Source: Hemicentrotus pulcherrimus (taxonomy: Eukaryota; Echinodermata; Echinoidea; Camarodonta; Strongylocentrotidae). Taken from it: a stretch of 64,000 nt of DNA. The translations under genes were made by a program, and so were the position numbers. The stretch lies in assembly GCA_003118195.1 (NCBI GenBank), contig BEXV01000030.1:120019-184018 (forward strand), given 5' to 3'. Below the pieces are notes generated by a model that did no database searches, was not told the DNA's origin, and was given only the letters and a program-made list of their open reading frames with translations. Positions 1 through 60,970 of the stretch are shown here, piece after piece; position 1 is the stretch's first letter, and each line of letters begins with the position of its first letter.

Positions 1-1183
1 TTGAAGAACCTCAAGAAGAGATGCATTCCAATGTTGGTGTGTCTCCAGTTATCCATCCTAATTTTTTCTCCATTTCAATCTTTCTTCATTTCAAGTGTAG
101 GACGTCTGCTCTCCGGTGTGACATTGTCATCATTACTCTACCCATAAGATTTTGTGTGTTGAGAGCCAGTGTTAGGTGATACAAGTTAACGCCCTTCTGG
201 CTTTGAGCAGACTGCATGATTCGACTTTAACGTCCTTTGAATTTCTCAAGCTGTTGCCTTCCCCTGATGTGCTGTGGTGTATAGCTAGTGATCAGCAGAT
301 TGCTGACTTTAATTATTCACTGATATGTTAAACCGGTGAAGGAAATAGAGGGGGCTGGATGGTGACACATTTCTCTATAAATGTTGAACATTAATCTTCT
401 TGGTGTCACTCTGTTTCAGTTTCCCAATCATAGGTTCTAGTCATTTGTTATGGAACAGAAGCTCAGTAGAGAAACCTGAGGGTGGATTATAATTTTATTG
501 TAATTAGCAGTATAATGATGGTGCAATTTCAAACCAAGCAAAATGAAATGAAAGTAAGTCATACATTTTCAAATTGCCAAATCTAGTCAAGCATGGATTA
601 TGTAGGAGAGGGGCTTTCACTCAAACTGTCAGTTGTGGATTTGTTATACTTAAAGAATGAAAGTCAAAACATCTCCATCATCTAGCATAAAATGCAAACA
701 TGAATCTTGCTTGTTAGTTCCGATTCGATTTGCATGGAAATGATGAAATGATTATAAAAAAAAAGAGTGTTTAAAGGCATTTTTTTAAAATATCTTTTTT
801 AAAAATATCATTTTTTTTAAAAGCTGGTCATGCCATGTCATGAATGTCTGTTGAACTTTGTCACAACCTTTTTTTTTAAAAAATATGATGACATCACTAA
901 ACCAACCTAATTATGGGGTATAAGCCTTAAATAGCCCTCATGCTTTTTAGACTTTCTGGGTCAGGATGAATCACGGTTCCTATCTACTCAATTATTTACT
1001 AATCTTTTCCTCTCTCTTATAGAGCAATTTTTGTCTTCCATTGGAGCTCTTTCAAATGCGTGATTGATAGGTGAGGTGATGTCCAGGAAAGAGACCCCCA
1101 CTCCCCTAGACTCACCTACGACTACCCTGGAGCATTTACACCTGCCAGAAAATTATATGAATCAGAAGATGATGTCAGTTTCT
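1..1183. other. Non-coding AT-rich block
   Basis: No convincing coding frame is seen on either strand. The block holds palindromic element copy A (160-210, listed separately). From about 755 to 890 it alternates short poly-T and poly-A runs that could pair locally. The rest looks like unique intergenic or intronic sequence. Confidence 0.6.
160..210. repeat. Palindromic element, copy A
   Basis: The right arm, GTTAACGCCCTTCTGGCTTT (186-205) followed by GAGCAG, is a nearly consensus arm of the dispersed hairpin family. The left arm GAGAGCCAG (161-169) is its inverted partner but has lost the AAGGGC block, so only the outer stem pairs. The two arms are about 16 bases apart. I infer a degenerate copy. 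I know of no named repeat with this sequence. Confidence 0.6.
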
Positions 1184-1258
1184 TCTGCTTAGCGCCAGAA
1201 GGGTATTGAATTTGTGCATGATGACATATGAGATAATGCCCTTATGGTTCTTAGCAGA
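1184..1258. repeat. Palindromic element, copy B
   Basis: The left arm begins TCTGCTTAGCGCCAGAAGGG (1184-1203). The right arm, about 1232-1258, reads ATAATGCCCTTATGGTTCTT and then AGCAGA. The reverse complement of the right end, TCTGCTAAGAACCATAAGGG, aligns with the left end, so pairing extends out to the TCTGCT/AGCAGA tips. This copy helps define the outer boundary of the family at TCTGCT. Confidence 0.7.
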
Positions 1259-2633
1259 CAATTTTGTCATGTTATAGATTATAACATCAAAGTGATGAGT
1301 AAGCTAAAGAATATCCTTTGATTCCCAATGACATGCAGAACCCCACTCCACCTTCCCCCCTCCCCATCTCAGCGGCTCCTTGGTAGCACCTGTATTGCAA
1401 TTACATTATTCATAATCTTAATTCATTTACGTCTCACCTGTAATGATACGAATCTCACACTCGTCACCGGTAGAAGGAACCTGAGGCTGGTATGAGGATC
1501 TCATTAGTGTCAATGGCTCTCTCTATGTTCCATGTGATATTCCTCAGGGGTGGGGGATTTTTTTGTTCAAAACTTGTAATGCATATTGTATATAACGCAA
1601 GGGCAAGGATGTTCTGTCTGGTCATGAAACTATTTGCAGGAGAAATTGTTGTCTTGAGTGTAGGAGACTAATTAATTGTAAGATATAACGTTGTCAAATA
1701 TTTTTGTACCAACAAAGGGAGGCTATATGAATATATTACTAGCAAGCTTTTAAGGGTCTGCTTAACCTAGCTCTAGCTAACCTTTTCTCTTGTTATTATT
1801 TCTTGCCTTTCTTCTTTCATTCCTATAATCCTTCATTTCATTTCCTCTTCATTTCTGTATTGTTTAGACCATCCCACCCTTCTCCTTATTTTCTCTTTAC
1901 ATCTTGCTTTATTCATCTCTTTGATTCTACACTCACATTCTTTCTGACATACTCTCACCCTCTTTCTCCCACAGGAAATCTTGTCTTGCCAGGATTTAAA
2001 AAACTATTTTAGCCTCCTGTTTTTCTTTTTGTACATCCATACCTTTCTCTTAAAACATATGCTTGACACATGTAAGCTTACATATTTCCACCACACTACA
2101 ACCTTGACTTCCTTCTCTCACAGGCAGCGATATTTCCAGAGTCATTGAAACAAACAAGGCATAAGACGATTTCATTTAGACCGTGGTATCTCCGCAACAA
2201 TTTAGAAATACCATGTCGGTGTATCGGTAATATTTTTCTTGAAGAGAGATAGGGTAATGAGTGCAATAACAGAATTTCAACAAGCGACCATTATGAAAGC
2301 CTTGGGGCACAAGACGTCATCATGTCCGCTTAATTTTTGTCTTCCAGCTGCCTTTCATCTTCTGCCGCCATTGTGCTATAGTCTTTGCATCCAAGACTCT
2401 CTAAAGCACACTAGACTTGATGCTGTGACAGGGTCTATGATATTCCGGTTACATCATTTAGTTCAGTGTACAGTTTTCAGGTTGTGTGTAGTTTATATTT
2501 CGATATGCTAATATTCGGAGCTGATGGAGGAATCATAAACTTAAGCTAATAAACATACAACTAGTGGTTGGAATAATCACATAATTATAAAAAAAGAAGA
2601 TTGACTTTAATAGTTAATAACATCTTGGGAAAA
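1259..2633. other. Non-coding block, partly pyrimidine-rich
   Basis: No gene is recognised. About 1795-2110 is rich in C and T on the plus strand. That composition alone explains the hydrophobic Phe/Leu/Ser frame at 1803-2012. The open frame at 2239-2511 has no motif I know. Confidence 0.55.
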
Positions 2634-2837
2634 ATGGTATTAAGTTGATGCCCTTCTGGCTCCAAATAGAAATAATATGGATTGATCTTGCAGAATATAT
2701 ATCTTTACCAAACGCTGTTTAGTGACGTGAAGCAAATGGTAATAAGTTGATGCCCTTCTGGCTCCAAATAGAAATAATATGGATTGATCTTGCAGAATAT
2801 ATATCTTTACCAAACGCTGTTTAGTGAAGTGAAGCAT
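2634..2837. repeat. Tandem duplication, 2 x 102 bp
   Basis: Copy 1 (2634-2735) and copy 2 (2736-about 2837) run head to tail with a 102-base period and only two or three differences seen. Each begins with a single arm of the palindromic family (GATGCCCTTCTGGCTCC), at about 2648 and 2750. No inverted partner arm is evident in either unit. The near identity points to a recent duplication or, less likely, an assembly duplication. Confidence 0.9.
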
Positions 2838-5800
2838 CATGTATACCGTTTATTTATCAAGATGACTTATTTGCCAGTCTAGTAATTAAACCATTTGATA
2901 TGGGTTGAGATGTTATTTCAGATACTCTACTTCTCTATCTACTGTAGATACTAGTTATAATGTAAGGCCTGCATTCCGTTTACCCATGGGTGAAAAAGTA
3001 AGTTGTAAGAATTGCTTCTGTTACAGAGAATTCTCCCTTTTTTTGGGGGGGGGGATGCATAGCATATTGATAAAGATTTATGGTAATTATTTGTCTAAGC
3101 CAATATGCATTGGTGAGATCCCACGCAGTTTCCTGGATATTAATTATAATGGATAATAATTCATATGAGGAGTGGTAGGAGATATAAAGAAATGAGCCTT
3201 ACATGTAATTTATTGAAGAGGTGTATCTTCTTGACAATATTTTTTTTTAGAGATCTGGAACACATGATTATTTTACTTCTACATATTTGGGAGAAAAATG
3301 GATTAAGGATATCTGTTCAACTGATTATCTCATTCATTTTACACCCACTGTAGGCCAGGAATAGCTTTACATGTAAGTCCTTGCTGTAACCATGCAGTTC
3401 TTTCCTCTTGCTTTTTTTTCCTTCATATTTTTTTCTACTCCCCCTTTCTTCTGATATGCATGTCTTGCACTGTCTCTTACCCCCCTCTCTCTCTCTCTCT
3501 CTCCCTCTTTCTTTCTCTCTCCACACTCTCACTCTGTCTCTCTTTCTTTCTCTCTCCACACTCTCACTCTGTCTCTTTCTCTCTCTGGTTTCCACGTCTC
3601 TGTCTTCTCCCCTCTATCACACACAATATTTTTGTGGCCAATACCAATTAAAACATCTGAAAATTGCAATAAATCACTTCACAGCACCTTTATATATACA
3701 AAGAGAACTAGAACGTCTCTGAAATGTTGAATTCCATGTAAACTGAGGACAGTAGTATGGCGCTCTGATGGCAGAACGGGCCGTTTATTCAAGAGATGTA
3801 ACCCGCTTTAGAGACAATCACCTGAACACACAGTAATCGTTGCCAATTTGCTATCCCACTCAGCTGATCAAATGCTGTATGATCACGGCCTATGCAACTT
3901 GATCCTGGCAATTCAGGTATGCTCGAGTGCAGCATCTTGGCTTCTAGTGGACGATGGACAGAAATTAAACTTTCTTTGGAGAAAGAAAACGAGTTAAGTA
4001 AGCTGATGAGTAAGAGAAGGAATGAACGAGCGTGGGAGTGCTTTGATTTTGATGATTAAAAAGGTATCATCCGCTTCGAATTAGTAGGATGTTAACTCAT
4101 ATAATTTAAGACAGAGTTAATTTAGTTCTGCCTCTTAGCAGATGATATTTAAGAAGAGAAAAGCACTGCAGGGAATCGTTAGTGTTACAGGGAGAGATCA
4201 TAAAGCAAGCCATTTAGCTGCTCTACAACTATCATTTACCCCTTCAGGAAGCAAATATTGTGTTTTATTAGCACTACTAACCTAGTTTGAGGGGCCATTT
4301 TGATAGAGTTTTAATGGTTTGGGGTGATAGCTATTTTATATTTCATACAGTTTAGAAGTCACCAGTTTGATTTTCAATAGATAATAATGGCCAGTTTAAT
4401 GAGATTTGAGTTTTGAGTGAAACTTGGTGAAATATTCATACAAAAACAGTCAACAAAACATCCTGAACTTTCTGATTGAAATAATAGATTGTAAATTTGT
4501 TGAGTTCTCACTTATAATTTCAAGGCCTTTTTGATATGAGCTAAAACTGAAAGTTTCTCCATTCCAATTCACACATATTCAACATGATATGCAGTTGAAT
4601 GTACATGTAATTTTCCTTTTCAAAATTTCCTTTAGGTGAATACGAGGACCGTGGAAAAAAAAACATATTGCACTTTGCCAGAGCTCAAGAAAATATTGTC
4701 ATGTGATGTCATGGGTATTATGTTCATCTTATATTTTGAAGACAACGACATCGCATTTGTATTCCAGACCGTAAATTGTTTCAATTGAGGATGGTCTTGG
4801 GACGAAGTCTTAAAATTGAATTAGCTTAGTATTGGAGGGTTTCGGCGAGTGAATCATCGATCAGAACAATTATGGAAACATCTTCGTGTTATGTTTCATT
4901 CATACAATATTTCTTGCCGGGGCATACAGGACTTCTTGGAGAGAAAAATGTATTTTGTCGGCAACATGTTGTAGATGCAAATGAATGCTAATTTGGGAGA
5001 GACTGTTTGTCCTGGGGAGATGTGTGTGCATGTATGGAGACAAAATTAATTTCACTTTTTTGGAGGGGGTCGTAGACCGAGCATTGAATAAAACAACTTG
5101 GGATATTTCATTTTGGGGTATTTGTATTCATGCAAAGGCTGTGGGATGTATCATAAATGAAAGAGAGAGGAAGGAATTCTGTTAGCCCTGGAGCAAAAGT
5201 TGGTGAATGAATGCACTTTTTGAGTCAAGAAGAGGTGAAAGGGAATTGGAAGAGGCAAAAGAGTGATAAACCATCTCAAATGTCAATTGATTTTACTCTC
5301 TCTGAAAGTGTCTTGAAATAGATGCACTCTTCCATTTCATTGATTTCTTTATCTTTCTTTTGACCCGGAATTGGCCAAAATTAGTACAGGCCAGCTATTC
5401 AAAGGATCCTAAGGGTTGACCAGGTCATTGTTGGCCCTAATTGCTGCTTTTAAGTTCTAGAAAAGTAGAGCTTAATCAAGTCTTGGATGGACACTTCAAA
5501 CCCTTGGCCTCCAGAGCTTAACAGTGATAATAAAAGATGCAGAGAACTGCCATGTCATATGCGGTATTTGGTTCACAGTAATCAGTGGTTTGGTGGAGGG
5601 GGTGGCTGCTTGTAAAGAGTCTGGCGCCAGGTCCACTAGATTACAATTGATCTCATCTTAATTTGCTCCACTTTTCACCGCTATCTGTTCAAGAGTGAAG
5701 CTTTATCCACTGCATACCTTTGCACTCGGAGGAGCTTCCGATGCAAATACTTCTTAATCTTTGACAGATATTATTGTGAAGGTAGAGAAGAATTGGACAA

Positions 5801-6043
5801 ATGGTAATTTTCTTATATAAATGTTAAAATAGTTACAGGTTGTCAGATGTAAGATTGTGTTTAGCTATATTTGATTAATGATGGAAATTGAGATACAGAA
5901 ATAAAAAGAGGGAATGGATAAGGGAGGAAATGGGAGAGATGTAAAGGATGCAGATGATGGAAACAGATAAAAGAACAGACTAATGTAATTGATACATAGA
6001 CAGACTAACATAGATATTTAGTAAGAAGAGGTGTAATTCATAA
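2838..6043. other. Non-coding block
   Basis: No gene is recognised. The block holds a T-run followed by a G-run at 3045-3054 and the CT-rich array at 3481-3600 (listed separately). Otherwise it appears to be unique AT-rich sequence. Open frames here are short and without known motifs. Confidence 0.55.
3481..3600. repeat. CT-rich microsatellite with internal 35-bp tandem unit
   Basis: The plus strand is almost pure pyrimidine. Within it a 35-base unit (3507-3541) containing CTCCACACTCTCACTCTGTC is repeated immediately at 3542-3576. Frames reading Ser-Leu or Arg-Glu through this tract on either strand are products of the repeat. Confidence 0.9.
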
Positions 6044-6090
6044 AGAGAGAGAGAGAGAGAAAGAAAGAGAGACAGAGAAGACAGAGACGT
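6044..6090. repeat. GA microsatellite
   Basis: A purine dinucleotide run of GA units is followed by interrupted AAAGAGAGACAGAGA units. Confidence 0.9.
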
Positions 6091-6936: not shown

Positions 6937-6972
<36 letters not shown>

Positions 6973-7665: not shown

Positions 7666-8110
7666 AGCCTTTTCACACACAGCTAAAATTCATCGTATCT
7701 AGTGATGATTAGAATCATCGTAAAAATTTAGTCATGATTATAGACAAAATTTCCCCGTGTGAACATCGGTTATAAGATGTTGGGATAGATACGAAGTCGC
7801 GATCTATACGCCCCTAAAAGCAGGCTACAGATACGAAGTTCGTATCTAGAGAGCTTGACATTTTGTGTGTGAAAGGAAATTCGTGTTTAAACATAATTAA
7901 ACTGGATGGAGCGTGCGCTTTGATTGACGTGACATGACCTTCAATGCGCAATGGCACTACTGCGCATTTTACGAGCAGTAGTTAATCACGAAACGATTAA
8001 AGATCGCACCGAAATTTCTGTGTGTGAAATGCTCGTGATTAGTTTAAACACGTTCGAAACACGTTTATACTAGTCATGTTTATAGAATTTTAGCTGTGTG
8101 TGAAAAGGCT
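7666..8110. mobile_element. Non-autonomous DNA transposon (MITE), 445 bp
   Basis: The left end begins AGCCTTTTCACACACAGCTA (7666-7685) and continues to 7691. The right end, 8085-8110, is its exact reverse complement, giving perfect 26-bp terminal inverted repeats. There is no open frame for a transposase inside, so the element would depend on an enzyme encoded elsewhere. The interior holds further copies of the end word GTGTGTGAAA (around 7865 and 8021) and a short palindrome, AGATACGAAGTTCGTATCT (about 7830-7849). A TAA triplet may lie on each side, which could be a 3-bp target duplication as in PIF/Harbinger elements, but a TA or other boundary is also possible. I therefore assign no superfamily. 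The perfect ends suggest recent activity. Minus-strand frames at 8080-8316 are incidental. Confidence 0.85.
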
Positions 8111-8425
8111 GTAAGTATCTTAATTTCAGGTAACATGTGAAATACGATATTAATGACATAATCATCCGCTTTCTCAATAACTCTCAAGGTCAATGGGGCT
8201 TTCACATTGCCAAGGACATGAGATGACAATGCTGCATCAAAAGATGTATGGACTTTGGTCCCTGTGCCATGGGGATGAGTATGTATATATGATGAGATGT
8301 CCATGAAATGTGCCAACCCACAAATATTTGATGGTTATGGTGAGGCCCCTTCGCCAAAACAGTTTGTAAAATGAATGACCCTTTGTAACGCATGTACATT
8401 ACAGTCCTTGAACTAACATGCTGTT

Positions 8426-8493
8426 TGCTGAAAACCAGAGGGGCATTAGTCGTGTACTTAAACACAATGGTTATGCCTTTCTGGCTCTCAAAA
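8426..8493. repeat. Palindromic element, copy D
   Basis: The left arm, about 8426-8455, reads TGCTGAAAACCAGAGGGGCA and then TTAG. The right arm, about 8470-8493, reads GGTTATGCCTTTCTGGCTCT and then CAAAAG. The arms are inverted relative to each other with about 20 bases between the cores. The inner flanks GTGTAC and ACAC may extend the pairing. Confidence 0.7.
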
Positions 8494-11400
8494 GATAACT
8501 GTACATATGCAGGGATACATGTATGACTTTCTCATGATGAAGTATGAAGCTGATATTTCCATGTAGATAATGTAGAGACTGTAAGTGAAATGCTCGTCTT
8601 CATAGTGGTTTAGAATAGGCTATTAAAAATGGCTAGTGTGATATGAATTATTTTTACAATTTATTTTTTGCATTGGTTATGATAATGATAATGATGATGA
8701 TGCTGATGAAAATAAAAGCCATACCGTCCATGTGTATACAGACTGCTTTTGGTGAAGAACTTTATTCCAAATCATATGAAGTGAAAGAAATGATATTTTG
8801 TTCATTCACAACTCCACCCTTTAGATGAGGCAAAGAGATATTTCTATTTAATCAAAAAGAAATATAATATCTGAGAGAATGAGGGAAAAAGCCTGAAAGG
8901 GGAATGACTGCTGGTTCATGATGTGATATTAGGAACATTAATGATGTTTGAAATTCAATTCCATCAGATTATTTTCAAACATCACAGTAGGATTACTCTC
9001 TATCCACACAGTGACGCATATAATCAGAGAAAGATAATTGAGAATATGATTGTGATCTTGCCGTCGTCGTCGATGAAAGGTAGTGATAGAGTATCTTGAC
9101 TTGCATGAATGTTTATGAATTGGAGCTTTCAAAATGTGGATTTTAGACATAACTATGAAAGGACAGGAAAATTGATAAGATTTTGGCTTGAGGGTTGAAA
9201 CATGAGTGTTGCAATGAATGAGTAGGCAAGGTGCATGTTGGTGGAAAAAATTCTCTATCTGCTTCATATTCTGTTACACACAATTAGGCTGAAATATGTG
9301 TATTGTTGTTCCTGTCATGTACCCATATGTTAGTACTCATGATGTATCATATGAATTGATGAATTTTACTTAACTCTTGATATGGGTAACTGGAGGTATT
9401 GTAGATGTTATATTGTATATTAAGGGGTAAATTAATGTGTGCATTATTTACCATCAATAATGGCTCATTTATTACATGAGCCCCAGATTAAACACAGCCT
9501 CATTGATGTAAACAAAAGGTTATCCATAATTTCCCATTCAACATGAACAACTGAGCAGAGTACTAAAAATTGTCCTTGCAAAATGAAACTGCTAGGCAGA
9601 CTTTCACGGTATTCCAGGTAAATATAATTGAAACATTGGTATTTACTTGACTCAGTCATGGACCTATGCTCGAATCCACATATTTGCTCTCATGCCGTGC
9701 CCATCCACCCATCAGCTGAGATAACGAGGCCTATGTACTTTCTACTGCATGGATGCCCCATGGAACTCACCATTACAATGTTTCTGTTTTGTGTTGTTAC
9801 TGGTGCAATCAAGGGACCGATTATTGGGGAAACTAAATGCCCCCTCGTAGGGGCACTGATTGCCCCCGCTGTGTGCATAATGTGGAGAAATTGGCTCGAG
9901 TCACTCCTGAATATTTCATGCGGGTGTTTTGAGGCAAGATAAAGGTTAGGGGAAAGTTGGTGAACTAATATTGTTGTAACAACAATACGCAATCGTGCAT
10001 GTCTGTACCAGAATATCCTCAGAGTCAGGATTTTGTCAAATTATGACTTTGAGGTAGATTCATTTTTCACATGCCTGGAGAAAAAACAGTGTATCTGCCA
10101 CATGTCCTCGATAAATTTAATGTTATGTGAATAGCTTATCTCATTATCTTATCCACCTTTGATCAGTCTGGTGCCTTTGAATATCTCCCATTTCATCAGG
10201 ATATCATAATATCGGTTGCCAGGTGAACTCGAATACACATTAATTTTATGAACCGCAGAGCAAAGTTAAAGCTCCTCTTTTTAATTGTAGAAATGTATAA
10301 GAGAGAAACGATCTAATACTTTAAAAGAAAAGTCTCCTTGACAACCTATACCTCGAGGCAAACGATCCCTGGTTGAAAGGAAGGGAAAACACAAGCTTCC
10401 CCTAGATACCTAATTAATTCATCATCCGTGAATTTTTCATTCTGTATTTCTTAACAACTTTTGTGACCTTGGAGCCAGCGCGTAGACAAACTGTTTATAT
10501 TGCGAATCTCAAATTGATACATGCTGGCGTATCAATGAAGTCTGCTTTTAATTCCGTAGTGATAGATTGACTAGGCCGTGTTTTCTTTTGGATCGTGCTA
10601 TCGTGAGCTAGAACCAGCGGCTTTGCTGCACATGTTACCGAGATCTCAAATACTTTGTATGAGCTTTTAGATATTGTCTTTAATCATTACAGTTAACGAG
10701 AGAAAAATTTGCTCACATTTGGATATTGACCACCACATATGTCGACAGTGATTGTAAACAGAAACCGAACAAATTGTTATGCTTATAATTGACATAAAAT
10801 ATTTTTCCATATTTGATGTTCGAGAAATATCACAGTGCTTGAATATTACTTTGTTTGAAAACCAGCAAGAATCTGAATCATGTGTTCTTGAAAAGGCAGG
10901 TTGCATGGGCTTCTTCAGTTCAAGTGAGGTAGAGCATGTGGAGATTGTATTTGTATAGAGTTCTTCTTTTCTAGGGCACTGTGTCATCTCGGCTACCTGT
11001 ACTACCAAATTGGTGTAAATGGGCTAGGATCCACTGCAAAGAAGAAAGCCAAATATTTCCTTTTCACCCGTAATTCATGTATTTACTCATCTGTTTCCCC
11101 TTCTCCTTCGACCCATCCAGTAACTGCATAAACAGCACACTCTGTCTCTCCGGCTTTCTATTGACGTGAATAACAAAAGAGGAACGCAGAAAGGATTGGG
11201 GAAGAAGAGGAGGGAAGGGGTCGGTCTTCAGGTAAATTGGTCGGTGAATTGTCTTTGAAGACGCAAACCTTTTGTCTTGCTACACAGACAAGATATGAGG
11301 TTGGAGGGGGGTTGTATTGGGGTAAATGGGAGCAATGTTTATTTCCCGGGGCAGGCAAAGTGGTTTGGACACAATCACAAGTGGTATTCGGCAATGTTTG

Positions 11401-11632: not shown

Positions 11633-11737
11633 AATTCGTCGCTGTTTTCACGAAGTGACGGTAGTGAAAAAAAATTGCATTCACTTTGCATTACGATTTT
11701 CCTCACTACCGTCACTTCGTGAAAACAAGGACGAATT
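11633..11737. repeat. Nearly perfect inverted repeat, 35-bp arms
   Basis: The left arm 11633-11667 and right arm 11703-11737 are reverse complements apart from two adjacent positions (GTCGCTG against GTCCTTG). The core of the arm is TTTTCACGAAGTGACGGTAG. The arms are separated by 35 bases, which themselves have a run of A at one side and T at the other. The size and shape fit a small foldback transposon or a hairpin RNA precursor. The arm does not match any microRNA I know, and no target duplication is clear. Confidence 0.9.
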
Positions 11738-14046
11738 GTTATGAGGATGTGTTAGAAAAATATATTCTCCTGCTAATTTGTCAAATGGGTCCCTTTTCTA
11801 TATTTATTACATCAAAACTAAGTTTCTCAATATGATTTGATTAAATTAATGAATGCTGAACATTGAAATCTATGAATGAATAAGGACTTCTTGATGCCAA
11901 AATTTAAGAAGTGACCTTGGCATTACCATGTTTCATCATAGATAACACTGAATATTATGATAAATGGATTTTGATTTTGGTTTCTCAAAGAGAGTTCTGT
12001 TCTGCTCAAGTTCTGCAATGCTGGTAATATTACACTACATGAGTTTAACCGATTCATGGACATCAAAGTTAAAGGTTCAGAGGAGAAAATGCAAGGAGTT
12101 AAGAGGTAGGAGAATAAGGGATGGGAAACAGGCAAAAAGAGCAGAAATCAAAATGACAAGAAAGTGAGAGAAAACAAAAAGTGAGGGAATGTCACAGAAG
12201 GATAGAGAGAGGGAGGGAGAGAAAGAAAGAGAGAGCGAGAGAGAGGAGAGAAGAGGTGGGAGGATTGTTTGCAGTCGAGAAGCATATGGTCAATGCAACC
12301 TGCTACAGTGTTGAAGAGTAAACACATTACATTCAATCAAATCATTCTTCGACGCGGCTGTCTGTCATAATTTGCGGTCCATTTTCTAGTTTGTCGTAAA
12401 AGTAAATATCCTCCTGTTCCGACCAGAGAGAAAACATAGGAATATGATCTAATTGTCGGGGTAAACATTGTTCGGTTACTTGGCCATGGTTGTCACACAT
12501 TGCCGGTTGATATGTAAGTCGGTCGTAAACAGTAGTTGAATGTGACTCATTTGATGTAACTCTTTCTCTCTGGGTTGAATCGAAGGATGAAAACTTTAGC
12601 CAGTCCCGCCGGGGGTTAAAGATTCGGGAACTTGAGAATCTGACAATGTTTTCAGTTTGGTAGAAGTGAAATGTATCTAGGCACCGCTTCATGGTGTGAA
12701 GTGAATTGATTTTTAAAGGTGTAGTATGACAAATGATGGGGAAAACAGAAAAAAACATTATTTTTAGAACTATATAATAAAAAAGGCAAGGTGAATGACT
12801 GTATGGGAATATAAAAGGGTATCAGGAAAAGTTTTCTTGATATGCTAAATACAGTGACATTATTATTTCAAAGTGTCTCATCAAGATAAAAGTGAATGAA
12901 TAAATAGTTCAAAATCTATCCACGGAAGAAAATGATTCTCCCCTCTGTATATCCAAGATGAGTAATATGTATACAACAAAAAGATATGAGGGGGATGGAA
13001 ATTCACATTAAAAATTAGAAATTAGAGCATGAAGTAGTTGCTTTTTCTCCATAGTAGGCCAACTTCTAATATCTTTTAATGTCTAAAATATGAAAATCTG
13101 ATAGTACTCTGAACTGATTGTCCCACTCACGGAATGAGGACATGACTGGTACTATAGATTTTCCTTCCAAAGACGGACATCATAACGGTCATGTGACTCT
13201 TGTCGTCGACCAAGGAATGAGGTAAATGGAGCAGTGTGCTAGTTAGAGTGACATACCTCGCTCTGTAACTGTCATCTTACTCCGGTTCTTGGTTCCACCT
13301 CACTTCAGAGGGGTCATTAGAAACCCCCAAATGCCCTTTAATGATACTCTATAGACAGATTATCCCCACCCCCATCTCCGCCCAACCAATTTTCCAAATG
13401 GGCGTTTCTATTCTAGCCAACATTCAAAGGCATTCCTTTGCTTTATAACGAGCCTTAGCATGATGAACCCTCCATGTGAAGAAACAGGAAAGCAGAGGTC
13501 AGTTGAAGCGCAAGAATTCAGTTATTTGAGTCACATGATGTGACGAACCAATAAGTGGGCTTGATTATGATGGATGGGTGTTCAGAATCAATTCTTAGAT
13601 GAGTTGAAGAAAATGTCATCTTTAAGTACCTGGTTCACAATTAAACAGCCCCGTGACTGAATGAATCATTTCAGCTTGAGAGCTAACATGACTGGTTAAT
13701 GTTGTTGTTCTTTTTGTCTTGAGGAGGGCAGAAGAGTTCATCCTCTTTCGTCTCTCTATGTTTTTTTCTAAATGGATGCCTCTTCCTCCTATTTCTGAGT
13801 GATATATTTCATCTCTTTGTGCCAGTGGCCTGAGCTGACTTCTTCTGTTTACTTAGAAAGCACATTAATGGAGGTACATCCCATGCAAATTCTAGGTGAG
13901 AGCAAAGAGGGCGATAGATGTTAAGACTCTTCATTTTCAAAGATTTTATCCATTTTTTATCAGTGTGCTCAATACAAATTTCAAAAAAGGATTTTAGTTT
14001 TGATGTATGGATAATTAATATGAGAAAGTGATGAAAGATGTAATGT
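11738..14046. other. Non-coding block
   Basis: No gene is recognised. A purine-rich GA tract lies at about 12180-12260. The 138-codon open frame on the minus strand at 12342-12758 shows no signal peptide, domain or motif I can name and is probably chance. About 13130-13330 is somewhat GC-richer and may be regulatory, but nothing specific supports that. Confidence 0.5.
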
Positions 14047-14115
14047 CAGCTGACAGTTGGAAGGGCGTTAACAAATAGCATTTATATAGAAGTGATGTCC
14101 TTTTGACTCTCAGCA
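14047..14115. repeat. Palindromic element, copy E
   Basis: The left arm reads CAGCTGACAGTTGGAAGGGC and then GTTAAC (14047-14072). The right arm is GTGATGTCCTTTTGACTCTC followed by AGCA (about 14092-14115). It is a diverged copy in which both arms keep the GGAAGGGCGTTAAC-like core in opposite orientations. Confidence 0.65.
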
Positions 14116-15685
14116 AAAGATTTTTTTCCTCCAAAAAGGTCCTAGATGCATTCAAACACGGAAATGTGAAATAGTGCTGGACAAGAAATAAATTTACATA
14201 TTTTTTCAGGAGGTAGTTCCAGAAGAATTAGATGAGGTTGCCGTTTACCACACCCTTAACATTTTAATTATGAAAGATGACAAGGTCATTCTATGGTATA
14301 GTGAAGATGGATGTGTCATTTTAAAACCAAGCAGATAGATAAGCATGCTGTTAACACCATTCAAACCTAGACCACATTATAACAGCTTAACCTTGTGGAA
14401 AATAGACATATGATTAGAGGTTAGGAGCTGCCCCAGTAGCGATAAACTTTTTTTTTTTAAAAGAAGATGAGGTGTTTGAATAGAACCCTTCAAGGCTTCT
14501 GCTACTCAGGCTTGAATACTGTTCACCTTGAAGTAATTTTAACCACAGTGCCAACCAAAATGGTGTAAAAGTGTCCAAAAATCACCCATGGAAAAGGTCC
14601 TATTAAGCATGAAGTGCTACATTAAACCACATTGCTTCGCTCATGGATAGAGACTTTTACCTCATTCAACCGTGAGGATTGGAACAGACACAGCTAAAAT
14701 TGATGAGATAATTAAGAGCTTTCTCACATTGACAGGTCCCGCACATCTTGTTGGGTAATTAGTCTGAGATTTCTTCACTCATGGAGGCGCTAATGTGAAC
14801 AGCGCTCGAAAGGGAGGTGTCGCATAGGTTCGACCGATCTCGTAATATCTGGCGCCCTCATTGCACCTTGCCACACCTGGTTTGGATTGCTTTGATTGAC
14901 GAGCTGTCATGATCTTGACAGGCAATGTCAATGGTGAATGTTAGTTTCTGCTTTTGTTTTTCACTTTCTAAGGTAGATATGAAGTAATGGTAATACTCTC
15001 CCAGATCATCCTTACAGTGTGTCAAATCTATTGAATACCAATTAAGTATTCATGTCTTTGTTATGCTCATCTATAGGCTATACTTCTGTGATAACGTTCT
15101 TTGGGAACTGCTAAATGACACAACTGCATCTTCTCTTCTTGGTGAATGTCATCATTCTCTGCATTTTTATTTGATTTGATTTGCTTTGCTTTGCATTTAT
15201 GTCCATTTTGTCCATATCATTTTGTTTGGTCATATAGAATTGTATATAGAGGAGATGGCTGTTGTCATAAGCTCATATTGAATCCATGAAAGCTCAATTA
15301 TCTTCACAGAATGTTTTTTCAAAACTTTTCTAAAAAGGCAAACTACAAAGTTGGACAGACATACTGGGAATCATAAGAAGTGGGTTAAAGAAAGAGAGAG
15401 GAAAAGGTCACAGAGGATGTGACTGTGGAAAAGGAAAAATATCACAGAGAAAATGAAAGAAATGGCATTCTTTTTCCATACCTCTTCATCATAATGATTG
15501 TATTGTATGCTTTCGTGCTTTACATGGTCATTTCCTGTCTCATATTCTTGTTATTTGACAGCCTTGGTATCTGGTGTAGGCTAATAAGACCAAGAACATG
15601 GGAATATAGGTTGATAAATGAGGAAATGAAGCAGGTGCATGCAATCAATGCTCCATTCACACCGGTGTAGGGAAATATATGAGAG
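14116..15685. other. Non-coding block with GC-richer island
   Basis: No gene is recognised. Most is unique AT-rich sequence. The stretch around 14700-14950 is denser in recognisable transcription-factor-like words and is listed separately as a candidate regulatory module. Confidence 0.5.
14700..14950. promoter_or_regulatory. Candidate cis-regulatory module (PBX/MEIS-like sites)
   Basis: The sequence shows three TGACAG-type MEIS/TGIF words: TTGACAGG at 14729-14736, CTGTCA at 14904-14909 and TTGACAGG near 14915-14922. It also shows a PBX-like TGATTGAC at 14893-14900 only a few bases from the second of these, a CACCTG E-box just upstream and a GCGCCCTC word at 14852-14859. Spacing of a PBX word next to a MEIS word is typical of TALE-homeodomain sites. 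That this is an enhancer is inference from motif clustering alone. Confidence 0.25.
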
Positions 15686-15712
15686 GCTCAGAGCCAGAAC
15701 GGCGTTGACTCG
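15686..15712. repeat. Palindromic element, single arm (copy F)
   Basis: One arm, CTCAGAGCCAGAACGGCGTT followed by GACTC, matches the family consensus with one core change. Where the opposite arm would be expected there is instead a GA microsatellite (from 15720). The second arm may have been lost to repeat expansion. Confidence 0.6.
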
Positions 15713-15719
15713 TTATTAT

Positions 15720-15796: not shown

Positions 15797-15882
15797 TTAA
15801 GAATATAGAAAGATAAAGAAATATTTGCAAAAGGGAATAAGATGATAAATGTAAATTGAGAAATGAATTTCCACTTTTCAAA

Positions 15883-15954
15883 TACATCATCTGCAGACAG
15901 CCAGAAGGCTATTAAGTCACATCCCCCAACCCCTGGCTCTCATTAGATGATGTA
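15883..15954. repeat. Palindromic element, copy G
   Basis: The ends TACATCATCT (15883-15892) and AGATGATGTA (15945-15954) are exact inverses and sit outside the family arms GACAGCCAGAAGG and CCCTGGCTCTC. The stem therefore spans about 22 bases per side with a few mismatches and a short spacer. It lies 170 bases from copy F and between two GA arrays. Confidence 0.7.
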
Positions 15955-16001
15955 CGTGTATATGTAGGTGGGGAAGGGAGAGATAGGTAAATAGAACGAT
16001 A

Positions 16002-25617: not shown

Positions 25618-26475
25618 GCATTTGCACTTCTTTCATTTGGACTAATTGGTGATTACGGCATGATGACACAGTTGACATTTGCATGGCCAAGGAATCGCCT
25701 AAATAGCATAATTGATAGTAAACTAGAATCACCAAACTTAGTATGCACAGTAATGATTTGAATTATTGTGTAGTTTGTAGCATCATATGTCTGTGTTGTT
25801 CAGGTTTATTTAGTAAGGCCAATTGATTAAAATGTATCAAAATGCATTTGTAATCTTTCGCTACTTATGTAACTAAGGCTATTTTTGTATTGTATTTGAA
25901 AAAAAGCAATACATATTACAAATTGACTTGTATGTGGCTGATTCTGACAATCATATCAATTTTTGGATTTATCGTTGCTCTTTTCCATTTATTTTGTCGA
26001 CTTAGAGTGGGGTTCTCATAATGGCAGATGAATTATTCAATGTATGGTTTGCAATGTGCATCAGTTACATACCGATTCCCAGTACACAAAGTGCAGACCA
26101 AATCCTAGTGTTATAAAGAGACAAGCATTTGAAACCCAACCTCAGATAAATGGATTTATTGTAAAAGCAGGATGAACGATAAATGCAGTTGCATTAGCCT
26201 CTGCCTTTATTGTTAAGAAAAAGACTGAAGCTCTATACAGCTTATCTTGAGTTCTGGCAATAGAATTATATTTCAAGAGAATGTGGGTATATTGCATATT
26301 ATTTATATCAATTATCATGGCTAATATGGCTCTTAAAGATCATCATAAAAGGTGTTTTAATAGAGTAACCTTTAACAAATTGTATTTGTGTATGAGAATA
26401 ACTTGATAAATGGGGAGAACAGTTTTTATTCTCTGTCATAAATACACCACTGTAACAATGAACATATGAATAAGT

Positions 26476-26545
26476 TGTGTGTTTGGAGCCAGATGGACGT
26501 TAACTGTGTTAGTATATGAGTTGGTGTACTTCTTGCTCCCAACTG
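26476..26545. repeat. Palindromic element, copy H (diverged)
   Basis: The left arm TTTGGAGCCAGATGGACGTT (about 26482-26501) continues AAC. The right arm, GTTGGTGTACTTCTTGCTCC followed by CAA (about 26520-26542), is roughly its inverse. Both cores have drifted, but the arm order and spacing match the family. Confidence 0.5.
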
Positions 26546-29500
26546 ACAATGTTTTTGTGAAGCACATAGGATAGGCTCTACCACAGAATATGAAGAGGCG
26601 TGAAACAAGTAAACAGAGCATTCGAACAGGAAGAAGATCCTTAATGCTGAATGAGTATTAGTTGTGGTAGCCAGATATTTATCAAAGGACATGCACAAAA
26701 AGAAAAAAAAAATGGATGAAGCAAGTGATTATTCTTGTCAGCCAAGAATAGTAAAATCAGTTTTATCATGTGAGAAGAGGAAGCCCTCTGTGGTTTAGAA
26801 GAGGAAAGGAGAAAGAGATTAATTTAGTTGCCAGTCTTTAAATGTCTTTTTTTTCAAGGTGGCTTTAAAATGTGGAGATGGGAAAGGATAGGGAAGGGGA
26901 TCCATTCGAGGTTGAACAAGTGAATAATTAAAAAGGAGTGTGAGGTTTTATTGGTTTGCCAACAGCAGAGGCAGACAGCTAAGAGTCATTGACAATTGAT
27001 CAATAAAAGCAATGCTAATATGTCCGACTCCTGCAATGCAGGTTTTCTCTGTTTTCATGCATCATCCCTGGCATGGTTCAGATGGTTGTTTGAAGTCATC
27101 TTTGGGAGTCGATCCAAACCAAATGATGAGTGCAGGAAAAGTGATGGGTTTAATTTACCTAATGCTGTTGTCTGTTGATGATTAGCAGTCGGATCATCCG
27201 TATACCACCTGTCATTTTCTGTCAGAGATTTAGGAATATAAAGATATCCTTTACTTTGTATGGTCACTTCAAATGATGAAGGAGTCTTAATATTGCAACA
27301 CTTACTGAACAAATATTTAAACTAAATTCTATCCCTGTAACTTTCATCTCCCTTATAAAGCGAGCATGATATGGAATGGCCGGGGAAGAGGATTGACCAA
27401 TTGATTGACGTTGCCTAGAATAGGTCATGAATAATACATTCTATTGAGCCATGTCATCCGTTAGCCAAGACTGTCTACATTCATGAAGTGTGACTTTAGT
27501 TAAGGTCAAGACCATTAGCTACTTCAAGTGGTCAGGAGAAGTGCGGAGAGGCTATGAGTAAGCCTGATGACACAATAACCCACTGTGATCTCATGATGGC
27601 TACTGTAGACTAGTACTGCCTCTAAAAAATACAGTCGAGGTCTGATGAAAGGTGAACAAATAACTTGTGAGCTTTCTCGTTCTCTTTATGCCAGTTTGAA
27701 AAATATCATAGTAAAAAAATCGCCTTAAAAGTATTGCTCCTCGAATGCCCTAATATTAAAAATGTTATGAGAAATAGCTGAAGTGTTTGGACCTAACATT
27801 TATGCCTCTTTTACATGTCGCCCCATGTATCCATTTATATGTGCTGTCCTTTTGCTTTTCAGTTAGACCGAGTCAATTTCTGATCATTTTTTTCATTCCA
27901 AAAGCTCGAAATAGACACCAGTTTTTATGGGCTACATATTGAACATCTCTAGATTTGTTTGGAGATGGTTTCTTTAACTACGTAATGGCATGACCAGTAC
28001 TCAACTTTATCTTCAACAATTTCAATTCTGCGTCACTGGTTAAAATAGGCTATGAGGCAGTCACTGGTAATATGAGGAATGACTGGGTGGAGGTGTTCTG
28101 GAGGTGGTTGGTGGGTGCTTTTCTCTTGAGTCCATGAAGAAGAATTTAATTGAGCCAAATTAGCATTTGTAGCTTCTGCTCTGTTTGTAGGCAAACCTCA
28201 CGTAGGAGGCTTTGTTGATCGTGGAGTATTTCATTTCATGGGATTATGCATGACAGGTGGGCTTAGTGAAGGGAGGAACCAATTTGACTCCTCTCCATGA
28301 GAAAATGATGTAAGTGACTGACAACCTCAGGTTCTTAAAAACAATTCCTAATATGACCTCATATTGTAGCGCCCTCGTTTAAGTTTAGTTACCAAGTCAA
28401 CTGTCAATGTTATTAGAAGTTGGAAGAACAAAAACACCCTTAACATCCTTTTTATTTTCATTCTCCGAGGAAAAAAGAGGGCATCAAATTGAATTTGCTC
28501 CATTGACATCCATCAATGAAGGGTTTCCTTCGGTCGGAGGTGTTTTCATAGAGCAGTCGACCATTCTTGTGCCTGTCACATAGAAATAGAAACCGTCTTT
28601 CACAACGTGGTTAGTTATACCGGAAGTGGGTCAATGTACACAGGGGTGAGTAAGAAAGTAAACACTCGCCATTTTACTCCACACTTTGTTTTACAGGTGG
28701 GTATTCAGAATGAGGAGTAGCTTTGGTTAGGGCTGGGAAGTGTCTCCTTGCCCTGTCTGTGCAGCCCCACCCCCCCACCTCTCACCAACATCCTTTCACC
28801 TCACTTTTATCACTAAAACATTCCCAAACAACGCAACGAAGAAAAGTCTTTTTTAAGTCTAGAATTTGTCCTGAAAATCTAGTTGTGGAAAGATTGACAG
28901 AGGAAAATATCATTTCTGAAAATCAGTTTTTGGTTTTTAATGCAGGAAGGCCATTAGGGTTAAATGATTTTTTATGCACCAAGAGTTAAGCTTCATTTGA
29001 AGTTCTTTTTAAGTTAGAGTAGTATTTTCAAATTGCTGGAGTCACTTCACTTTTCTTCAATATAATCAAGCATGGGATAAAATACTGTTAATGCTATCTG
29101 ATGAAGATATGGACATACTCTGTCTGGAATATTTAGGGAGAGGAAGCTTAAAAATGGGATAGAAACATGCCAAGAATACATGATGATGGCTAAGACAGGC
29201 TATAAACAAAGAACATGAAAAAAGGAAAATAGTAAGAAATGAGTATCCAAACGGCAACCATTGCTTGAGGCTGATCACCCAACAAATGACTTGAATGAAG
29301 CTTTTGTTGGTTGCAAATTGATTGCGATTACTCATCCATTTGACATCTTGGGGTTGGTGGTGACGAGCCAGCTCACCCAACTCCTCAAGACACAATTGCT
29401 TTCATGGTTACATTGTCTTCAGTCCCCGAGACAAGACGAATCATGACCAAGAGACATTTACTGAGATAATTTGATAAGCCAATTAAAAGCATTTATACCA

Positions 29501-30714: not shown

Positions 30715-31264
30715 CCAATACTGATTACATAAACATTTATGGCTCACACACTCCAAATGCTGGAAGAAGGGGCGAATTTGAAATCATGTGATGCTGCTCG
30801 ATGCCAACCAAGGTGACAGCAGTCCATGCACTTCTACCTCGATGAACTCACAGTCTATGTCAACAAGTATACATTCTCCCTTTTCTCATCTAAAATCATA
30901 CGCCAGGCAGTTTTTTTGACCCATGGTCGCAATCAAATACCTTATATTGATCTTTATCAGCTAATGCTTTTCCAATTGATATGTGAATAAATTAATGTCT
31001 ACTTGGAAACACATGCACATGCTTGAAGACTTCAGATCCGGGCAAGTACATGCCCGGGCACATGAATATACATGAGTTACAAACACTCCTTCCATTCATG
31101 TTTAACTTGTCTCAAATATCGCTGTAATTGAATTTTTTTACTGATTTGGCGAAGAAAAGATGGAGGATGCTGCAGTGCTTATATGGATGGCACAATTAAA
31201 CCTTTAGTGGTTGAAATGAAAGTCTCTGTAATATTCTTGGGAGCATCTTCAGCCTTACAAAGCA

Positions 31265-31336
31265 TCTGCTGAGAGCCAGAAGGGCATTAACTCTATTATG
31301 ATGTATATGAGTTAACATCCTTTTAGCTCTCACCAG
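31265..31336. repeat. Palindromic element, copy I (best preserved)
   Basis: The left arm, GAGAGCCAGAAGGGCATTAA followed by CTC, begins at 31271. The right arm begins at about 31308, GAGTTAACATCCTTTTAGCT followed by CTC. Over 23 paired positions I count 18 Watson-Crick pairs, two G-T wobbles and three mismatches, around a loop of about 14 bases. Outer CTGCT and ACCAG may add to the stem. This copy best defines the family. Confidence 0.8.
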
Positions 31337-43022: not shown

Positions 43023-43527
43023 TTGGGTAAATGGTAGTAGAAGTAGGAGAGAAGAGATAATTGTGGCCAAGTGGATCAGACATGGCAGATGGTTCAGCTT
43101 TAACAGCTCGTAATGACACCTCTGGAAATTTATGCAGCTCCACACCATCTCACTGCTTAAAAGCATAGATGAATGGAAAGTGTACATAGTCTTATGCTAA
43201 TTTAATCAGATCAAAAGCATACCAAGGCCTTATTCATTAACTCCCTAATCATCAACAGCACTTTCGTCGCAATCTACATCCCAGCTATTGTCTGTAAAAT
43301 CAATTAAGCACGTATGAAACCTTACAAGATTTTATGCACTTATACCACCTTCTGTATGGGTCAAAGTATACTTTTTTTCTCTCCTTTCATATTATTTCTC
43401 TTTTTTGCCTTCTTGTAACTGTTTTGTATCATTCTCAATCATTTATTTTTGCATTTCAAGACTTCTTTGTGTTATTTCACACATCCACTTTCCCATTAGA
43501 ATTCTTTCTTTCTTTCTGTAAGTCATT

Positions 43528-43588
43528 TGTTTGGAGCTAGAAAGGCGTTAACTTTAATCCAGACTTCGGACCTTTCTGGCTCTGAAGA
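43528..43588. repeat. Palindromic element, copy J
   Basis: The left arm is TTTGGAGCTAGAAAGGCGTT followed by AAC (from 43529). The right arm, CCTTTCTGGCTCTGAAGA, starts at 43571. GAGCTAGAAAGG pairs with CCTTTCTGGCTC over 12 of 12 positions, one of them a wobble. Both arms carry AGAAAGG in place of the family AGAAGGG, so the same change occurred in both halves. Confidence 0.75.
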
Positions 43589-46228
43589 CTGAACAGACAA
43601 TATAAAGCTTAAACATGATCTACACCTTTTGGCGTATATGATAACAATAAACCCCCAAACCTTGCTTCCATGTTGATGAAAGTGCGCTAATTAGCCCATA
43701 TCACACATCACGGTAATCCAGGCATGGACATACCTCCCTCGCCTTCTGCTATGATGCGTTGGGATGTCCTTGCAATGTACTAATGGACGAAGGCGGCGAC
43801 ACCTGATTGATTAGACCAATCATAGGCTGGACGATTGGTCCCTTTGTTCTTGTTAATTGCCCTCTACTGTCCCATGGTCATGGAGTCAGCAAGTCTGGCG
43901 ACAAGTTCAGGTTTGATTTAAATCTTTGTTTATTTTCTTTTTTGATCTACCTGCCCATCATTAATTCTTGTACATCCCCCATCATGTGCATCATTCCTAT
44001 TTTTCTTTTTTCAACTACTGTGCTAAATTGGAACCAAATGGGCACAAATACTGCCAAACCATTTCTGAACTGATCAATAACTTGGCAATTTTTGGGAAAT
44101 GTAATGTTTAATTTAGTCTGGTGTCGATCTTGTGTTCATCTCAGTAGTATGACTGCATGTATTTCAGCTCATAAACACCCCACTCCATGATATTGCCTTT
44201 CTTGCAACATAGCACCTATGAGTAAAGATATCGCATGTGCAGATGTGGAAAGAAAGCACTTCCAAGCCTGGTACGGTCATATAGACACGTGGGGTATGTT
44301 CGTTTATAGTTCTTGTACTGGTATGACTCATCGCACATTCAATTAACATCCCGTGTTAATTAGCCGTCAGTCAATCTGCCAATCACAAGCCTCGATCAAT
44401 AGTTGGCCTTGGTCACGCCATTTCATGTAGGAAAACATTGTATGACGGATCACTAAATCCTTCATCAAACAATCGATTTGCTGGAAGTTTTGTTTTGTCT
44501 TTACCTAGTCTTCCAAAACAACTGTCCCATATACTTTATCCCTATTTCACATCACCCATTAGTTTCAGAAATTAAGCTTTAAATCAGATATGACATGTTT
44601 GTCATCTTGGTAATGTGGTTTACTCAACTACGTTGAAAATAGGATTTGTTGTATTTTGATATTGATCTTCTAAAAACAGAAATAGACTGGGATTCCTGAT
44701 GCCATTACAAGTCACAAGCTTTAACAAAAGACATTAAGAATAGTTTTACATCAATGATTTTGTAGATTGGATGTGCAGTAGTGAGTGTAATTTCATGAAT
44801 GGGATGATTTCTTTGTCCATGTGTCACACATCATAAAAGTCAATGTACTTTTCCCATACATTAGAAACTATAACGACAAGTTTATCATTGAGGTACAAAA
44901 TAATACATCTTTCTACATATGAATCATCACAGAATTATTCCTTGTATTGTTGTTAGTTTTTTGATGCCAGGAGTTGAATATATGATTTGATATTTTCCGC
45001 CGATTATAAAAGCAATCGTCCCGATTTAAGGGATAGGGCAGCCAGAAAGCAATTTTCTTTTGGGATGGTAATGTGCTATGAATAATAGATCCCTCACCAA
45101 TTCATTATGGATTGATACATTTTCCAATTGATCCATTATTGTCCGAGCAGGACTGATCAAAAAGGAGTAATTTTTGTTGCAAGTGTTTTATTTGCTTAGA
45201 TGTGGACCTGACTCGATTATGAGTCATATTTTTTAATCTGTCGCAATGCTACTGTTTCCATCCTACCCCACTCACCACACTGGGGTCTCTCTATGGTTCG
45301 CCTCATCGTTATGGAACAGTGCATGTGGATGGAGGAAAATATAACCCTCATATATATACTCCGGTGAATGCACTTTCACTGCGTGCGTGCCTGCCTGGCC
45401 GGCGTTTTATCAATATATAATGCCAGAGAAAAGAAGACGATCAAAAGTCGATCTGGATATGGGGGGCCTGCGATGGCCATGGTGTATCCATAGCTATCAT
45501 TTCTAATTAGGGGAAGGGGATTTGAAGGGGAGGGTAAGTGAACTGTGAAGGGGTTGATTGCTGGAGAGGGGTTGGTGTAGGGATTGTATGATTGAGATGA
45601 TTTATGGACGTATGACAGGAAGGATTAGTAACTTCAGAAAGTGGTTGACACTTTAATTTTCAAAAGATTCATTATTGTATGATTTTTTTTTTTTATAGGT
45701 AGAGACATGAAAAAGGTTTCTTAAATGACTTTTGGAGGGAAGAATGAGAGCTGCGAAACAGAAGGGTTACAAAGGAAGTAAACTGAATGGATACCAAGAT
45801 GAATGATAGAAAATGTAGAAATAAAATTGATTGACATATATAGAGAAATACATGTACATATCTAAAAGTGTTGTAGAAGAAAAGAAAGATATACGGCATA
45901 GAAAGAGAGAGATTAAGGAAAAAATGAAGACATGAGATGGAATGGGAGGAGATATGAATGAGTGGAGATAGTCTTTACTGGCATTGTTCAATGATGCATG
46001 CATTATCCTAATGTAGATGGGGTAGAAAAGATGGGTATTCGTGGATGTAATGGGGGATGGACAGTAGACTGGCTTTTGACAGCTGAGTTTGTACCTCTTT
46101 GTACTATCAATGCAGTATCCACATTTGTGTTTGTCATTCAAGTCTGTCATCATTACAATTATTTTTAAGGGAGAACTGGGGTGGGGGTGAGAAATATATA
46201 ATTATTTAGTTTGTCAGATAATGCTGTG

Positions 46229-49628: not shown

Positions 49629-50134
49629 ATCAGAACATCCCAGGTAATTCTATTGTATTTCAACAACAATAAATGTAATATTTTGTACATGAATCTTTCT
49701 CTGTCTACATCTAAATTTATAGTACAAATATTTGGAGGCAGTTCACGCATAGTTCACGATGTTCTACCAAACATCATGACAAACCACCGATAGGAATGTC
49801 TGGTTTTTATTGCCCATCAAGATCGACCTAATACATCCGAAGAAAGCCATAGCGATCAAAGTACTTTGAAGATTTCATGGAAAACACTTGNATCAGAACA
49901 TCCCATGTGATTCTATTGTAATTCAGCAACAAAAAATGTAATATTTTGTATATGAATCTTTCTCTGTCTGCATCTAAATTGTTAATACAAATATGGTTCA
50001 TGATGTTCTACCAAACATCATGACAAACCACCAGTAGGAATGTCTGGTTTTTATTGCCCATCAAGATCGACCTAATACATCCGAAGAAAGCCATAGCGAT
50101 CAAAGTACTTTGAAGATTTCATGGAAAACACTTG
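49629..50134. repeat. Tandem near-duplicate split by one N
   Basis: 49629-49890 (262 bases) and 49892-50134 (243 bases) begin with ATCAGAACATCCCA and end with the same GAAAACACTTG. The N at 49891 is exactly at their junction. They differ by scattered substitutions in the first half and one deletion of about 19 bases, and are almost identical in the second half. This pattern is what an unmerged overlap of two contigs from different haplotypes looks like, although a real tandem duplication cannot be excluded. Confidence 0.95.

Positions 50135-57711: not shown

Positions 57712-57716
<5 letters not shown>

Positions 57717-57768
<52 letters not shown>
57717..57768. repeat. CT microsatellite
   Basis: About 26 uninterrupted CT units. 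The Arg-Glu run in the antisense frame 57667-57891 is its translation. Confidence 0.95.
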
Positions 57769-57772
<4 letters not shown>

Positions 57773-60480: not shown

Positions 60481-60820
60481 GACAAATTTACAGAGCAAGA
60501 TGGTTGTATGCTGGTGTGTTAGTGAGACCAGGAGGAGGAGGATGGAAGATGAGATGATGAAGAGATGAGAATGAGAGAAGGATGAGGAGGAGATAGACCA
60601 AGGAAAGAGGTTATGGGAGAAACCAGCAGAGGGTGTAGAGTACAACAGAGACACATTTATAGAGCAAGATAGTTTTAAGCTGGTATGTTATTGGGATGTA
60701 GAAAAGGGGAAGGAGGATAAGCTATAGAAGAATGATGAGAGGAGATAAGAAGAGAGACCATGAGAGGATGAAGAGTGCAAACTCAAGGCAAGGAGAGAAA
60801 CGAATACAATGATGGAAAGA
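60481..60820. repeat. Old diverged tandem duplication, about 170 bp period
   Basis: The words at 60481 (GACAAATTTACAGAGCAAGA then TGGTTG..GCTGGT) recur at about 60650 (GACACATTTATAGAGCAAGA then TAGTTT..GCTGGT). In both copies a purine-rich GAGGA/GATGA tract follows. Numerous substitutions separate the copies. Confidence 0.75.
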
Positions 60821-60918
60821 ATCAGAAAAGTAGTGTAGACAGACATTCTAGAGAGTTAAATGTCGAAAAATGAATGACTGCAATGATGGACCCGCTTAAA
60901 AAATTCATAGAATTGTTT

Positions 60919-60970
60919 GTGCTAATAGCCATAAGAGCATGAGCAGGACATGCCCTTCTGGTAATCATGT
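60919..60970. repeat. Palindromic element, copy K (short)
   Basis: The left arm TGCTAATAGCCATAAGAGCA and the right arm ATGCCCTTCTGGTAATCATG (about 60950-60969) are inverted relative to each other with a spacer of only about 10 bases. One arm core is degenerate (CCATAAGAGCAT). Confidence 0.55.

Follow-up and report, generated by a model that had tools for sequence, protein, structure and literature searches.

A short, high-copy palindromic repeat of the sea urchin Hemicentrotus pulcherrimus with the anatomy of a non-autonomous DNA transposon

Within a 64,000-nucleotide window of the Hemicentrotus pulcherrimus genome (assembly GCA_003118195.1, contig BEXV01000030.1, positions 120,019 to 184,018), we characterized a dispersed family of hairpin-forming repeats, each a palindrome of ~85 bp, that is very probably a short non-autonomous DNA transposon, namely a palindromic miniature inverted-repeat transposable element (MITE). 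The unit is short, dispersed and high in copy number; its ends recur and form terminal inverted repeats, as is characteristic of MITEs. The original prediction, made from the window sequence alone, had offered two explanations for the hairpins, and the one that invoked a foldback or MITE family is favoured here: the copies derive from a single palindromic unit that has recurrent ends and is too short to code, they are dispersed in very large numbers, and their arms decay independently of one another. On anatomical grounds the best reading is a MITE of the MADE1 type, with Tc1/mariner as a candidate superfamily only. The family looks like a new member of a well-known kind, novelty having been judged by words in the literature rather than by comparison with Repbase or Dfam: a 12-base arm word occurred only in three papers with unrelated titles, six longer words occurred in none, and among titles on MITEs in sea urchins we found none on the present family.

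The existence of a hairpin family with a shared arm, as originally described, was confirmed by several scans. Twelve positions in the window matched the arm GAGAGCCAGAAGGGCRTTAAC at 17 or more of its 21 bases, against none in 10 dinucleotide-preserving shuffles, and a two-armed scan (two 35-nt arms around a loop) returned 12 places at a score of at least 38, against none in the reversed window, where a single place reached a score of 36. Nine of these 12 places are two-armed; a strong arm that meets a partner by chance can attain the same summed score, and the remaining three places (2579, 2694 and 15677) are lone arms of this sort. Two good ungapped arms were present in seven window copies (1178, 4064, 8418, 14040, 26472, 31259 and 43520), and a covariance model built from an alignment of 32 copies (out of 33 references) detected nine loci at E < 0.01, comprising these seven together with 145 and 15880; six of the nine were contained in its training set, leaving 145, 15880 and 43516 as the independent detections. 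We then define the scanned sample as the window plus 39 loci (321,729 bp in total), most of the loci having been picked for holding the arm word, which inflates the conservation of the arm core and understates divergence. This sample contained 89 places at a score of at least 38, some of them lone arms, against none in the reversed sequence, and 143 strong arms against 2. Across the whole assembly (414,278,638 bases in 4,189 contigs), the 15-base word GAGAGCCAGAAGGGC with at most one mismatch was found 911 + 845 = 1,756 times, compared with 6 + 2 = 8 times for the reversed pattern. Exact matches of both arms occurred at 11 places genome-wide, whilst the exact 21-base arm had no match in viral and prokaryote contigs.

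Most of the 11 sites first listed in the window are full members of the family (Table 1). Eight (160, 1184, 8426, 14047, 15883, 26476, 31265 and 43528) are two-armed by the covariance model, whereas the site at 15686 is a lone arm adjoining an AG microsatellite, that at 2634 is a lone arm present twice owing to a tandem duplication, and that at 60919 is weak and unproved; a clear copy at 4064-4148 had been missed. The density, initially put at about one copy per 6 kb, rises to about one per 5 kb with lone arms counted. The duplication at 2632-2836 is itself a 102-bp unit present twice in tandem with 98% matches, each unit bearing one family arm.

Table 1. Copies and arms of the hairpin family in the window, followed by the ~400-bp dispersed repeats of other sampled loci
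Feature	Position	Strand	Arms, loop and remarks	Covariance model E	Fold z
Best-preserved copy	31259-31343	+	5' arm 29/29 core positions, 15-nt loop, second arm	1.1e-20 (training set)	-5.3
Two-armed copy	1178-1264	+	17-nt loop	3.6e-15 (training set)	-4.3
Two-armed copy	4064-4148	-	ends ATATCATCTG...GGATGATAC; structure branched	1e-18 (training set)	-5.0
Two-armed copy	8418-8501	-	14-nt loop	5.5e-15 (training set)	-5.6
Two-armed copy, decayed stem	14040-14123	-		1.2e-13 (training set)	-0.7
Two-armed copy	26472-26552	+	11-nt loop	8.1e-17 (training set)	-3.1
Two-armed copy	43520-43596	.	short loop, 7 nt	2.2e-5	-3.2
Gapped two-armed copy	15880-15957	.	outer bases still paired; no ungapped partner arm	6.7e-6	-4.9
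Copy with one arm partly lost	145-221	.	no ungapped partner arm	2.4e-5	-0.1
Lone arm entering AG microsatellite	15677-15716	+	arm 18/21 at 15689-15709; two-armed score 39.0	no match up to E 1	
Lone arm (2644-2664)	2611-2680	-	first of two in 102-bp tandem duplication	0.12	
Corresponding lone arm in second duplication unit	2746-2766	-	tandem duplication 2632-2836		
Doubtful weak copy	60908-60982	.	both arms 15/21	0.21	-0.4
~400-bp dispersed repeats	L009:6874-7268, L010:2961-3362, L013:6517-6937, L014:2177-2551, L018:6654-7031				

The ancestral unit, ATAT ends included, measures ~85 bp and reads ATATCGTCTGTTGAGAGCCAGAAGGGCGTTAACTC, then TGTGTTAAAGTATAT as a loop of 15 nt, then the arm in inverted orientation, which closes with CGATAT. 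The arms are 35 bp long and the consensus has no internal repeats; a palindromic unit of this length bears out the earlier statement that the family lacks coding capacity. Column counts over 35 copies showed that conservation is nearly at background level immediately beyond ATAT on either side, and the boundary formerly placed near TCTGCT/AGCAGA is therefore moved to a true edge six bases outside TCTG. The loop, first described as 5-30 bases of spacer, is homologous between copies and most commonly 15 nt long (25 of 74 copies), and each of its bases agrees in 14-22 of those 25, an agreement somewhat inflated by the use of the loop itself to orient the copies. As the loops agree, whole copies are homologous and not the stems alone. 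Of the 141 strong arms whose 3' side could be read, 113 had an ungapped inverted partner beyond the 95% point of chance (a chance level estimated within this very sample, some real copies included), indicating that the palindrome itself is the usual repeat unit. Four unpaired arms compared with one another had no interior in common.

The second of the original explanations, that the copies are structured RNAs or hairpin regulatory sites, taken here to include pre-microRNA-like hairpins and to imply selection for pairing, is highly improbable. Of 12 window copies, seven fold as RNA better than their shuffles (z below -3) and five do not, and in size the unit is like MADE1, the origin of human mir-548 (PMC1784062). 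Against this, we detected no covariation or compensatory change between arms, with pairing and other measures at or below the shuffled mean, also where both arms are good. Paired cells made up 69.8%, compared with 70.5% when partners were shuffled among copies (428 of 500 shuffles as high), and arm identity was 0.575 within copies and 0.567 between them (P 0.15, n = 74, one of the 75 copies at a score of at least 40 having been dropped for a missing flank or N). The same identity comparison gave P 0.68 for 39 copies outside the four array-bearing loci, and P 0.25 (n = 61), 0.11 (n = 52) and 0.41 (n = 42) for copies with both arms good at three cut-offs. At arm positions 5-6 the CpG has decayed on both sides (left arm: CA 20, TG 18, CG 6, TA 6 of 74; right arm: TG 20, CA 18, TA 9, CG 7 of 74), in surroundings where the observed/expected CpG ratio is 0.44, and divergence outside CpG has a mean of 0.27 and a median of 0.23. 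A subfamily of six of the 74 copies carries CA on one arm facing TG on the other (Fisher P 0.0004, a post hoc choice), and the keeping of such a mismatch is unlike pairing selection. A search of the window against Rfam at gathering scores was negative. The independent decay of the arms and the decayed CpGs together speak against selection for an RNA or a hairpin site; the picture is that of an old palindromic transposon, drifting and inactive.

The ends of the unit bear on how it may have moved. The absence of a clear target duplication, noted at the outset, was upheld, as a scan of 14 x 14 offsets and lengths 2-10 across 49 copies detected none beyond 2 bp. Its best signal was AT against AT, with 15 exact matches where 7.6 were expected (z 3.4, one of many tests), and the third base outside ATAT showed a weak mirror-image preference (A in 39 of 74 on the left, T in 33 of 74 on the right), such as a palindromic target rich in AT would give. 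The end-to-start pattern CAGAYRAT-N(0-14)-ATYRTCTG was found at 41 places genome-wide (control 14). A single shared ATAT (N = 0, CG-ATAT-CG) occurred at 10 of these, whereas the other lengths averaged ~2.2 each (Poisson P about 1e-4), and seven of the 10 exact junctions are dimers with good arms on either side. The single shared ATAT is consistent with insertion at TA beside an existing copy; a 4-bp ATAT duplication would give an identical junction, but a symmetric AT duplication would not. In the mechanism that we propose, a cut-and-paste transposase would have recognized the unit by its inverted ends and placed it at TA within AT-rich sites, so that the TA inside the ATAT ends would be the only duplication left; some units would have become joined by sharing one TA, and the family would since have fallen inactive and drifted.

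When oriented by the loop, all seven dimers were called head-to-tail (binomial P 0.016 if all calls are right), a result softer than it looks given the small orientation margins for two of the 14 elements (L046 left, 32 vs 37; L049 left, 15 vs 19). Dimer members were no more alike than random copies (0.668 vs 0.677, P 0.73; the most alike, in L047, reached 0.80), which suggests that the dimers arose while the family was spreading. Locus L047 holds two whole units with a partial unit on each flank, and looser clusters or arrays in L014, L015, L016 and L020 look partly like local duplications (spacer words shared, by eye). Local hairpin arrays with related spacers or directly abutting units were also observed at L016:4438-5121, L020:4424-4783 and in L047. 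It is improbable that the family, as an 83-85-bp near-perfect palindrome that spread to tens of thousands of copies and formed head-to-tail units with a single TA in common during its active period, was amplified via circular or rolling-circle intermediates instead of by simple cut-and-paste insertion in random orientation.

These arrangements bring up the alternative of a satellite-like tandem repeat, in which head-to-tail arrays would be the source form and monomers would have been scattered, for example via extrachromosomal circles. The clustering in four loci, the uniform orientation called for the seven dimers and the multiple units of L047 are what such a repeat would leave, but neighbours lie within 100 bp in only 12 of 51 sample pairs, the terminal ATAT is common to single copies and units in arrays, and the members of a dimer resemble each other no more than random copies do, making a satellite origin very improbable. 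A question that falls within the MITE interpretation, and whose likelihood overlaps with it, is whether the family belongs to another superfamily, either as an AT inserter like the mosquito ATons or as a Helentron-like rolling-circle element, rather than to the TA-inserting Tc1/mariner type. We consider this unlikely, yet a possibility of some weight: ATons insert at AT (PMC3422177), AT against AT was the top signal of the duplication scan, an L015 pair is joined by ATATAT, and head-to-tail dimers would suit a circular intermediate. However, duplication of AT with symmetric ends predicts dimers of the form CG-ATATAT-CG, and these account for one of the 41 places, compared with the 10 for CG-ATAT-CG.

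Several observations count against the interpretation of the family as a TA-inserting MITE. A target duplication is not directly readable and the ATAT ends are palindromic, with positions 1-3 agreeing in 62-68% of 66 ends compared with 77-82% at positions 4, 7 and 8. Three of the 10 exact junctions (L044, L045 and L050) are not dimers, and the adjacent pair in L015 is joined via ATATAT and not ATAT. For 28 of the 141 strong arms no ungapped partner was found; some of these 28 are gapped or cut copies, and others may belong to longer elements. A joined-flank search found no empty site within the sampled sequence, its matches being neighbouring hairpins or one flank only, and the single 'spanning' match being itself a hairpin. 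Nor was a transposase with these ends found: the Tc1-type domain DDE_3 (PF13358) gave six matches, with no arm in 701 bases on the 3' side of the best, and the mariner-type domain PF01359 had no match in the genome or in any control genome, which renders that search uninformative. Possibly the partner transposase has died out, belongs to another type or escaped detection.

Other candidate origins were considered and rejected. The 8-9-bp duplications of hAT-, MULE- and P-like elements would presumably still be visible at ~27% divergence, and none appeared in the scan. A long foldback element is set aside by the short arms (35 bp) and the lack of internal tandem repeats, and a scatter of random fragments is rejected on account of the recurrent ends.

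Among described systems, the closest in anatomy is human MADE1, an Hsmar1-derived element of 80 bp with 37-bp inverted repeats, 7,850 annotated copies and a role as the source of mir-548 (PMC1784062). Both are near-perfect palindromes of ~80 bp with a short spacer, non-autonomous and dispersed in thousands of copies, but the MADE1 loop is 6 nt rather than 15 nt, the host is human, the extrapolated copy number of the urchin family is several times higher, and an autonomous relative was found only for MADE1; the likeness is one of anatomy. The ATons of Aedes aegypti (PMC3422177) are similarly short and non-autonomous, have inverted ends and target two A/T bases, although they insert at AT where the junction counts of the urchin family favour TA. 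The foldback element Tetris of Drosophila virilis (PMC4079207) also carries inverted repeats, appears to be non-autonomous and is associated with tandem repeats, but it has ~220-bp internal tandem repeats, whereas the urchin family has 35-bp arms and none. MITEs at inversion breakpoints in Atlantic cod share the tandem arrangement, but are described in PMC12368964 as hAT-derived with several internal inverted repeats.

Abundance was estimated from twenty 10-kb loci, in which 55 places scored at least 38, or 35 after subtraction of one bait each (0.175 per kb), and from the 12 places in the window (0.19 per kb). Restricted to two good ungapped arms, the counts were 44 in the twenty loci (24 once the baits are subtracted) and seven in the window, giving 0.11-0.12 per kb. 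Extrapolated over 414 Mb, these densities correspond to about 45,000 copies with two arms and, once lone arms are included, as many as 78,000 places, figures that rest on a small, partly selected sample.

Further repeats were observed in the window and the sampled loci. A 26-bp perfect inverted repeat (AGCCTTTTCACACACAGCTAAAATTC) flanks ~445 bp at window 7666-8110 and looks like another non-autonomous DNA transposon, and window 11633-11737 holds a 41-nt inverted repeat, 90% complementary with a 23-nt loop, whose sequence is unlike the hairpin family. Two tandem segments at window 49629-50134 are 88% identical with a single N between them, possibly an assembly join or uncollapsed haplotypes. 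The palindromic octamer TACATGTA occurred 165 times in the 321,729 bp, ~15x the expectation from base composition (hand calculation). Dispersed repeat families of ~400 bp (Table 1) comprise pairs that are 78-96% identical, some common only over ~200 bp. The COX1 gene, on contig C4061, places the genome among echinoderms and closest to sea urchins: translated with the echinoderm mitochondrial code and compared with sequences named among the 120 listed of 7,999 scored proteins, it shares 95.4% identity with one named Prionocidaris baculosa, 94.8% with two more clusters bearing sea-urchin names (Echinocrepis, Cidaridae), 92% with a sea-cucumber sequence and about 90-91% with those of sea stars. 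Immediately upstream of cox1 is a large-subunit rRNA, and tRNA-Arg follows downstream, an order that fits sea urchins and sea cucumbers rather than sea stars.

Overall, if the extrapolation holds, 45,000-78,000 copies of ~85 bp would make this family ~1-1.5% of the genome. It sits in a group with mostly unclassified repeats; for Strongylocentrotus purpuratus, PMC8615465 gives 'unknown' as 78.5% of repeats. The one-sided orientation of the dimers poses a small puzzle on the movement of very short palindromic elements. At the extrapolated abundance, the family would readily supply hairpins for transcription, much as MADE1 gave rise to human mir-548, and hairpin-based prediction of RNAs in echinoderms would call for corresponding caution.

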